Source of the DNA: Natrarchaeobius oligotrophus
GTDB lineage: Archaea > Halobacteriota > Halobacteria > Halobacteriales > Natrialbaceae
Length of the DNA stretch: 64,000 bases
Reading direction: 5' to 3'
NCBI RefSeq assembly: GCF_003841465.1
Contig: NZ_REFZ01000006.1
Coordinates: 62,001-126,000, forward strand
The notes under the pieces are model-generated. The model searched no databases and was not told the DNA's origin. It worked only from the letters and a program-made list of their open reading frames with translations. This document shows positions 11,985 to 14,262 of this stretch, piece by piece (position 1 is the stretch's first letter; every line of letters begins with the position of its first letter). The translations under genes and the position numbers were made by a program.

Positions 11985-12581
11985 ATGAACGAGACGGAGT
12001 CGGATCCGAAATCGAGCGCGACGGACCCGGACGCCGCGTCGTCGCCGCTTGGCGCGGGCGTCGTCACCATCGCTTCCACGCGGACGCTCGAGTCCGATGC
12101 GGCAGGGGAGGCGATCGGTACGGCGATCGAGCGAGCGGGTCACGACCTCGCGACGAGAGAACACGTCGGACCCGACCACGATCGGGTGCAGGCCATCGTC
12201 CTGCGGATCATCGAGCGCAAGGACGTCGACGTCGTCGTCACCGCCGGAGCGGCGGGGGTCGAGCCGAGTGACGTCGCCATCGAGGCGATCGAGCCGCTGC
12301 TCGAGAAGGAACTGTCCTCGTTTCGCGAGCTCTTCACCACCCTCGCCTACCAGGAGGTCGGCACGCGGGTCGTCGCCGCACGGACGCTGGCGGGGGTCGC
12401 CCAGGGAACGCTCGTCTTCTGTCTCCCCGGTAACGTCGACGCCGCGAGGTTGGGAATCGAGGAGATCATCGTCCCCGAAGCCGCACATCTCGTCGAACTG
12501 GTGCGCACGGACGGCACAGCTAGCGACGGTGACGAAACTGATTCAGCCGCCGAGACGGTATCGACGGACGACGATCGATGA
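11985..12581 (+). CDS. MoaB/Mog-like molybdopterin-binding protein with a divergent active-site loop
   Basis: A 198-residue protein with the MoaB fold. It has an ITIAS-like first strand (VVTIASTRTL), an IIERKDVDVVVT strand, then TAGAAGVEPSDVAIEAIEPLL (about 87-107), ELFTTLAYQEVGTRVV and FCLPGN (about 152-157). In MoaB and MogA the loop is normally TGGTG followed by a conserved Asp; here it reads TAGAAG while the Asp of PSDV is kept. It may still bind molybdopterin, or it may be a specialised paralogue. The stop overlaps the start of the cyclo-ligase gene (ATGA), so the two are translationally coupled. The ATG at 11985 fits better than an in-frame start upstream at 11931. Confidence 0.82.
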   Translation: MNETESDPKSSATDPDAASSPLGAGVVTIASTRTLESDAAGEAIGTAIERAGHDLATREHVGPDHDRVQAIVLRIIERKDVDVVVTAGAAGVEPSDVAIEAIEPLLEKELSSFRELFTTLAYQEVGTRVVAARTLAGVAQGTLVFCLPGNVDAARLGIEEIIVPEAAHLVELVRTDGTASDGDETDSAAETVSTDDDR

Positions 12582-13300
12582 GCCCCACCGGTACCACCGA
12601 CAAGGAATCGATCCGACAGCGGATCTGGGACGACCTCGAGGAGAGCGGCCTCGCCCGGTTTCCGTTTCCGCCACACGGGCGAATTCCGAACTACGAGAAC
12701 GCCGCCGCGGCGGCCGATCGGCTGGCCGACGAACCCGAGTGGACCGAAGCCGCAGCGATCAAAGCGAACCCCGACGCGCCACAGCTCCCGGTCCGGCGGC
12801 GCGCCCTGCGTGAGGGAAAGACCGTCTACATGGCCGTACCCCGCCTTCGGGACGAGCGATGTTTTCTGGAACTCGACCCGGCCGACCTCGAGAGTTACGA
12901 CGAGGCGACGACCGTCTCCGGTTCGTCGAAACACGGACGCCCGGTCCTTCCCGACGAGGTCGAACGGATCGACCTGATCGTCACCGGGAGCGTCGCCGTC
13001 ACCGACGGCGGCGGACGGATCGGCAAGGGCGAGGGCTACAGCGATCTCGAATACGCTATTCTGCGCGAACTCGATCTCGTCGACGCCGAGACGCCCGTCG
13101 CCACGACCGTTCACGAGCGACAGGTGATCGACGACGCCGCGGCACTCGACGACCACGACGTCCCGATGGACCTGATCGTCACGCCCGAACGGGTTCGTCG
13201 ACCCGACGCACGCGAGCCCCCGACCGGAATCGACTGGGGCCGCCTCGAGGCCGAGCGACTCGATGAGATTCCGGTGCTCGAGCGGCTCCGGGAGGCTTAA
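12578..13300 (+). CDS. 5-formyltetrahydrofolate cyclo-ligase family protein
   Basis: A 240-residue protein of the archaeal cyclo-ligase type. The N-terminal helix is KESIRQRIWDDLEE. An early PPHGRIPNYENA segment and a KTVYMAVPRLRDERCFLEL strand set precede the conserved glycine-rich GKGEGYSDLEYAI (about 149-161), which forms the nucleotide/phosphate loop. A C-terminal DLIVTPERV strand (about 207-215) matches the family. The family converts 5-formyl-THF to methenyl-THF; archaeal members may act on other folates or be methenyl-THF synthase-domain relatives. It is coupled to the MoaB-like gene by a 4-bp overlap, linking two pterin-related activities. Confidence 0.85.
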   Translation: MSPTGTTDKESIRQRIWDDLEESGLARFPFPPHGRIPNYENAAAAADRLADEPEWTEAAAIKANPDAPQLPVRRRALREGKTVYMAVPRLRDERCFLELDPADLESYDEATTVSGSSKHGRPVLPDEVERIDLIVTGSVAVTDGGGRIGKGEGYSDLEYAILRELDLVDAETPVATTVHERQVIDDAAALDDHDVPMDLIVTPERVRRPDAREPPTGIDWGRLEAERLDEIPVLERLREA

Positions 13301-13396
13301 CGAGGACCGGTTTGCACGGGAGCGTCGCGTTCTCGCACGTTCGTTTACGTCGAACCGGAAGCGAGCGGACGCGTTGCGGTCGGTACTTCGCGACGT

Positions 13397-13445
13397 GTCT
13401 GACGCCTATACGCGCGTCTGACGCCTAGAGGACGCGTTTGACGCT
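13397..13445. repeat. Three direct repeats, about 19-nt period
   Basis: GTCTGACGCCTA occurs exactly at 13397-13408 and 13416-13427. A degenerate third copy (GTTTGACGCT) is at 13436-13445. The spacing is 19 and 20 nt. The role is unknown. Confidence 0.75.
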
Positions 13446-13460
13446 CGGCGGGACCGACGG

Positions 13461-13580
13461 ACGCACGTACCCGTGGTGCGTGCTCGAGAGCGGAAAGAAG
13501 TACCCCGGGAACGCGAACAGCGCGTTCCGGGTGCCAGAACCGCAGGGTGCGACGCGGGCCGGTGCAGCGGAACCCGCGTC
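13461..13580 (+). ncRNA. Candidate structured RNA: three hairpins in a row
   Basis: Hairpin 1 pairs ACGCAC (13461-13466) with GTGCGT (13476-13481). Hairpin 2 pairs GGAACGCG (13508-13515) with CGCGTTCC (13521-13528), extended past a bulged G by CCC/GGG. Hairpin 3 pairs GACGCGGG (13551-13558) with CCCGCGTC (13573-13580), with an inner CCG/CGG. The strand is unproven since hairpins look alike on both strands; plus is given for convenience. Confidence 0.35.
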
Positions 13581-13720
13581 GAAACGGTATGGCAATGGTG
13601 GGGGAAGGGTGCTGTGGTGGGATTGCTGGAAGTCACGGGAATAGGCGTGGGTGCCTCAGGTGGGGTCTGCCCGTCGACCTCCAACGATAGCTACCGGTGG
13701 GAACTACTTGAACGGGGTTG

Positions 13721-13732
13721 ACGGTATACCGT
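13721..13732. repeat. 12-bp perfect palindrome
   Basis: ACGGTATACCGT, self-complementary over all 12 bases, in the gene-free region. It could be a protein-binding site. Confidence 0.5.
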
Positions 13733-13935
13733 TCTTACGCCGAATTCCCTCGGATTTAACCCGGATTTAATCACCCGTTATCGGCCCCGAGACCGTTCAT
13801 ATCTCCAGAACTCTGAAAAGTTGCTCCGCTGTCAATACCGGCGGACACGACGGCCGAGCGGTGAGCGTACTGAGTCGGTTCCGTACAACGCCGACCCGCC
13901 GCGGTTGCATCGGAAAATCGCGACAGCGACTCGTC

Positions 13936-14262
13936 TCAGTCGACCAGTTCCTCGGCGACCAACGAGGCGTCGACCAGCTGCGGGTCGACGGCGAGATCGA
14001 GCTGTCCGCGCACGAACTCCGGAATCGTATCGCGCGCGTAGACGACCGTCCGTAGCTCGTCGGTCAGATCGCGGACGATCGGAATCGTCGTCGCCTGGCC
14101 GACGTCCGTCAGGACGTACAACCCGGCGTCGACGATTCCCGCCTCCTCGAGCTGGGGGCGCGTGACGACGCCCTCGAGACGAACGACGTCGGCTCCTTCG
14201 GCCTCGAGGGCCGTCGTGATGTCGTCGTCGTCGGGACCGACGACGATTGCGCGTCCGGTCAT
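13936..14262 (-). CDS. DUF7126-type protein, degenerate TrkA-N/Rossmann-like domain
   Basis: A 108-residue single-domain protein. It begins with a Rossmann-like strand and loop, [24 protein letters not shown] (about 4-27), resembling TrkA-N NAD-binding domains, but the glycine-rich loop is replaced by GPDDDD. A second strand pair ([21 protein letters not shown], about 46-66) matches the TrkA-N region after the nucleotide loop. It starts inside the stop of guaAb (ATGA overlap) and is third in the pyrG-guaAb-DUF7126 run, so it is probably co-expressed with GMP and CTP synthesis. I recall relatives being labelled as CTP synthetase by position only. Confidence 0.7.

Follow-up and report, generated by a model that had tools for sequence, protein, structure and literature searches.

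To our knowledge, few conserved structured RNAs have been catalogued in haloarchaea beyond tRNA, rRNA, SRP RNA, RNase P RNA, and guide RNAs. In bacteria, some regulatory sRNAs carry exposed C-rich segments between hairpins, together with a terminator hairpin. From a halite metatranscriptome, 22 conserved haloarchaeal itsRNAs without assigned function have been described, and they are reported as intergenic and primarily 50 to 200 nt long (PMC7002113). Here, we describe a locus in a 64-kb window (the whole stretch of 64,000 nucleotides analyzed) that probably encodes a single-copy, Natrialbaceae-specific, structured noncoding RNA of ∼240 nt on the minus strand, with its own promoter, a terminator-like end, and a putative role in trans. 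We put the probability of this reading at roughly 78%.

The locus occupies the gap between a cyclo-ligase-like gene, whose stop lies at 13300, and a convergent DUF7126 gene. The gap extends from 13301 to 13935, matching the 635 bp of the original prediction, and the following features were assigned in and around it.

12578-13300, plus strand: neighboring gene for a 5-formyltetrahydrofolate cyclo-ligase family protein (Pfam PF01812)
13490-13504, minus strand: U-rich stretch after P4 (GGGUACUUCUUUCC), the likely 3′ end judging by its sequence; UUUU in several relatives
13492-13730, minus strand: predicted noncoding RNA, ∼240 nt, over a block conserved in 30 relatives
13505-13531, minus strand: P4 hairpin, terminator-like
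13532-13594, minus strand: P3a closing stem, UGCCA-ACCGU (13594-13584) with GCGGU-UGGCA (13543-13532), mostly invariant, enclosing P3
13551-13580, minus strand: P3 hairpin, GACGCGGG...CCCGCGUC, with loop CUGCACCG
13595-13626, minus strand: C-rich linker GCAAUCCCACCACAGCACCCUUCCCCCACCAU, near-invariant and unpaired
13627-13639, minus strand: 3′ strand of the P2 helix, CCCGUGACUUCCA
13643-13656, minus strand: P2b hairpin inside P2, AGGC-ACCCAC-GCCU
13670-13683, minus strand: 5′ strand of the P2 helix, UGGAGGUCGACGGG, with one bulged base
13690-13725, minus strand: conserved 5′ segment ACCGUCAACCCCGUUCAAGU..., mostly unpaired, with invariant alignment columns
13726-13801, minus strand: conserved upstream element with TATA-like TTAAAT boxes (the doubled CGGATTTAA), phased invariant A residues, and near-constant spacing in the family
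13936-14262, minus strand: neighboring gene for a DUF7126 protein (Pfam PF23443)

A search with the gap sequence found positions ∼13491 to 13806 conserved at 69 to 87% identity in 31 of 37 same-family genomes (the source genome included). Conservation does not extend to the remainder of the gap, and one genome from outside the family matched over 30 bases only. Nearly all 30 loci fetched from relatives have the same flanking genes (5-FTHF cyclo-ligase-like and DUF7126/guaA). Most other haloarchaeal families (loci L106 to L125) keep guaA and DUF7126 adjacent, without the cyclo-ligase neighbor and without the RNA. The core was represented by covariance model R1 (139 positions, 13725 to 13588 on the minus strand), which was run under strict filters against an order-wide sample of 392 genomes; it matched 88 of the 96 Natrialbaceae genomes, in single copy each, and none of the ∼296 genomes outside the family. 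A more permissive search in 34 genomes recovered one additional member, G030 (E value, 0.025), which is divergent and syntenic, and found nothing in Natrialbaceae genera g7 and g10 or in other families. When 84,980 genomes were scanned for the exact helix pattern, 45 records matched, every one from a Natrialbaceae genus or MAG. The plasmids searched contained no homologues. In viral contigs, a 20-mer matched twice, but the remaining RNA showed no homology. One public genome has a second, partial R1 copy (L082:1173-1279) containing CTGTCTCTTATACACN, which resembles a transposase or sequencing adapter end; because of this adapter-like end, we consider the copy a probable assembly artifact.

The predicted RNA folds on the minus strand with a z-score of -4.37, versus -0.80 for the plus strand. 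Double compensatory changes were found at all 18 pairs of P3 and P4 (9/9 in each hairpin), with 97% of cells paired, and the double-change cells number 137 against a shuffled mean of 31, a signal that collapses when the partners are slid. Reconstruction on a core-only tree gave 70 double changes, compared with 1 to 10 for slid pairings. Although the P3/P4 alignment was fitted to its own model, the slid pairings nonetheless fail, and mutual information independently ranks the P4 and P3 pairs at the top. All four pairs of P2b, the small hairpin enclosed by the bulged 13-bp helix P2, have also changed on both sides. Covariation is weak in P2, the linker, and P3a because these parts barely vary; P3a is predicted in the source genome and in many relatives, with limited variation and covariation. 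Read as the minus strand, P3 and P4 contain 84 G-U cells versus 14 A-C cells, and one pair of P2 is G-U in 30 of 30 sequences; on the plus strand, it would be mismatched as A-C. An RNA on the plus strand was thus ruled out by the wobble pairs, the fold z-scores, and the position of the upstream element. The conservation of 13491-13806 across the whole family, the minus-strand fold, and the compensatory changes are far beyond chance. We regard the conservation, synteny, strand, and secondary structure of the predicted RNA as established. The original prediction of a novel structured RNA is supported, both by the strong covariation among relatives and by Rfam 15, which has no match at the locus or in 20 relatives. 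At a low threshold, Rfam returned only sR28, below its cutoff (12.3 versus 39 bits) and outside the RNA.

Of the unpaired parts of the RNA, the linker (GCAAnCCCACCACAGCACCC-UUCCCCCACCAU) is conserved best; it carries a GCACC/CACC motif that recurs in the P3 loop and in P2b. The U-run behind P4 is weak in the source genome. In the divergent genus g12 (L101 to L105), the RNA ends in one P3 hairpin, whose loop is CUAGCACCUCCC, followed immediately by UUUUU (TTTTT in most of the loci); the letters CACCUCC in this loop also occur at the 3′ end of 16S rRNA (...GGATCACCTCCA). In genus g6 (L026, L087, L088, L090, L092, and L099), the module appears to have been duplicated: the 3′ domain has two hairpins resembling P3, both with a UGCACC loop.

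Upstream of the RNA, A is invariant at 13766, 13756, 13745, 13735, and 13725 and present in 91% of sequences at 13796. These adenines recur every 10 to 11 bp (best period, 10.4 to 10.5 bp), with permutation P values of 0.0002 for the A fraction and 0.0036 for information content. The boxes are TTAAATCCGGG, TTAAATCCGAG, GGAATTCGGCG, and TAAGAACGG, and divergent members retain similar ones. The exact phased pattern occurs once in the source genome, at the RNA locus. We detected no regulon sharing it; in ten genomes it matched at the RNA locus only, except for one extra site in G002. The element is likely a dedicated promoter of the RNA, and its phasing suggests that promoters in archaea can be recognized in an unfamiliar way. 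Archaeal promoters hold a characteristic distance between the TATA-like box and the start site, and applying this geometry to the box near 13756 would place the 5′ end near 13730; the 3′ end probably lies near 13492.

The features listed in the original prediction were confirmed in part, and some of them fall outside this RNA. Its three direct repeats amount to two good copies of GTCTGACGCCTA, at 13397 and 13416, and a third that is only partial; they are unique to the source genome, missing from the gaps of 29 relatives, and do not belong to the structured RNA. Nearby, a 30-bp stretch left of the RNA (13357-13386, GGAAGCGAGCGGACGCGTTGCGGTCGGTAC) is 90 to 93% identical to single unlinked sites on C24 of the same genome and in several relatives, and it is possibly a small dispersed motif. 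Two of the three predicted hairpins (13505-13531 and 13551-13580) lie within the conserved block, but the first (13461-13482) is outside it. The G-rich run is present around 13591-13624. The palindrome ACGGTATACCGT exists at 13721-13732 but is perfect in just 9 of 103 relatives and is therefore incidental; as a hairpin it was rejected, not being conserved. The doubled CGGATTTAA (13751-13759 and 13762-13770) comprises the sole two plus-strand copies in the window, and it forms part of the DNA element upstream rather than of the RNA. The anticipated 250 to 300 nt was roughly right for an RNA now predicted at ∼240 nt, but without the direct repeats, the first hairpin, and the palindrome.

Several other explanations of the locus were weighed. 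The core could be a small protein gene, given the open frames of 68 to 92 codons on both strands. Core lengths in relatives vary in single-base steps, with every remainder modulo 3 represented, and the best-conserved stretch includes a C-run whose length also varies by single bases; the sequence is therefore not coding, which leaves a protein a negligible chance. Compensatory changes and noncoding character are both as expected for a member of the conserved structured noncoding RNAs. We regard it as very improbable that no RNA is made and that the locus is just a bidirectional terminator or a conserved DNA site with a regulatory or architectural role. The helically phased upstream invariants would suit a DNA site, and P4 could serve convergent transcripts, but the bias of G-U pairs toward one strand and the compensatory changes within helices are signs of RNA, and P2, P3, and the linker extend far past what a terminator needs.

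Two further readings seem unlikely. One is a structured 3′ untranslated region of the guaA-DUF7126 transcript, perhaps freed by processing, which fits the shared strand and the position directly downstream of DUF7126 in the examined loci. Against it stand the near-constant-spacing element just upstream, with its TATA-like boxes and 10-bp phasing, the unconserved remainder of the gap, and the retention of guaA-DUF7126 in other haloarchaeal families that have no detectable RNA. The other is a housekeeping RNP RNA, which might guide modification or associate with the ribosome in this lineage; the single copy per genome, fixed locus, and invariant helix and linker sequence would suit it. Nevertheless, the RNA is missing from two Natrialbaceae genera and from other haloarchaea, and its complementarity to 16S, 23S, RNase P, and SRP RNA is not clearly better than that of shuffles. 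A box C/D or H/ACA guide RNA was specifically rejected: no Rfam guide family matches, and by inspection there are no C/D boxes, no pocket in P3, and no conserved ACA after it.

Under the preferred reading, an independent noncoding RNA gene, transcription would start from the helically phased upstream element and end at the terminator-like hairpin P4. The helices would hold open the C-rich single-stranded linker and the GCACC/CACC loop, which may capture a partner, so that the RNA would act as a trans-acting regulator; both transcription and this function are proposed from sequence. Invariant sequence in an unpaired linker points to a partner. We give somewhat less than even odds to an RNA-binding protein, with the RNA as a decoy or scaffold. 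Pairing of short seeds with G-rich regions of mRNAs ranks below it, as doubtful, since conservation was seen for no target of long complementarity. Across 13 genomes, no conserved long antisense target of the linker core GGTGCTGTGGTGGG was found, and near-matches to the linker complement were no commoner than those to a reversed control. More speculatively, the locus may specify an RNP peculiar to this archaeal family: an RNA of a new class, with an invariant bulged helix and a C-rich linker that bind its own dedicated protein, and an unusual promoter that some factor contacts on one DNA face over about seven helical turns. Because its covariation is strong, its locus is fixed, and Natrinema, Haloterrigena, and Natrialba are culturable hosts, this RNA is open to direct testing.

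Among known RNAs, archaeal RNase P RNA (RF00373) is similarly structured, close in size, and present in one copy, and archaeal SRP (7S) RNA (RF01857, about 300 nt) is likewise structured, but neither model matches at this locus; the genuine RNAs sit elsewhere in the genome, on C20 and C1, respectively. Both identities were thus rejected, as the original prediction had proposed by eye. The likeness to bacterial sRNAs with C-rich single-stranded loops concerns a possible way of working, with no homology shown and no conserved mRNA target here. Our search of open-access papers found no description of this RNA. We rate it as a new family within a known kind, the conserved noncoding RNAs, uncatalogued in Rfam 15. 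It may overlap the published itsRNAs, which are also intergenic and conserved in Halobacteria, although its ∼240 nt exceed the 50 to 200 nt given as their primary range (PMC7002113).
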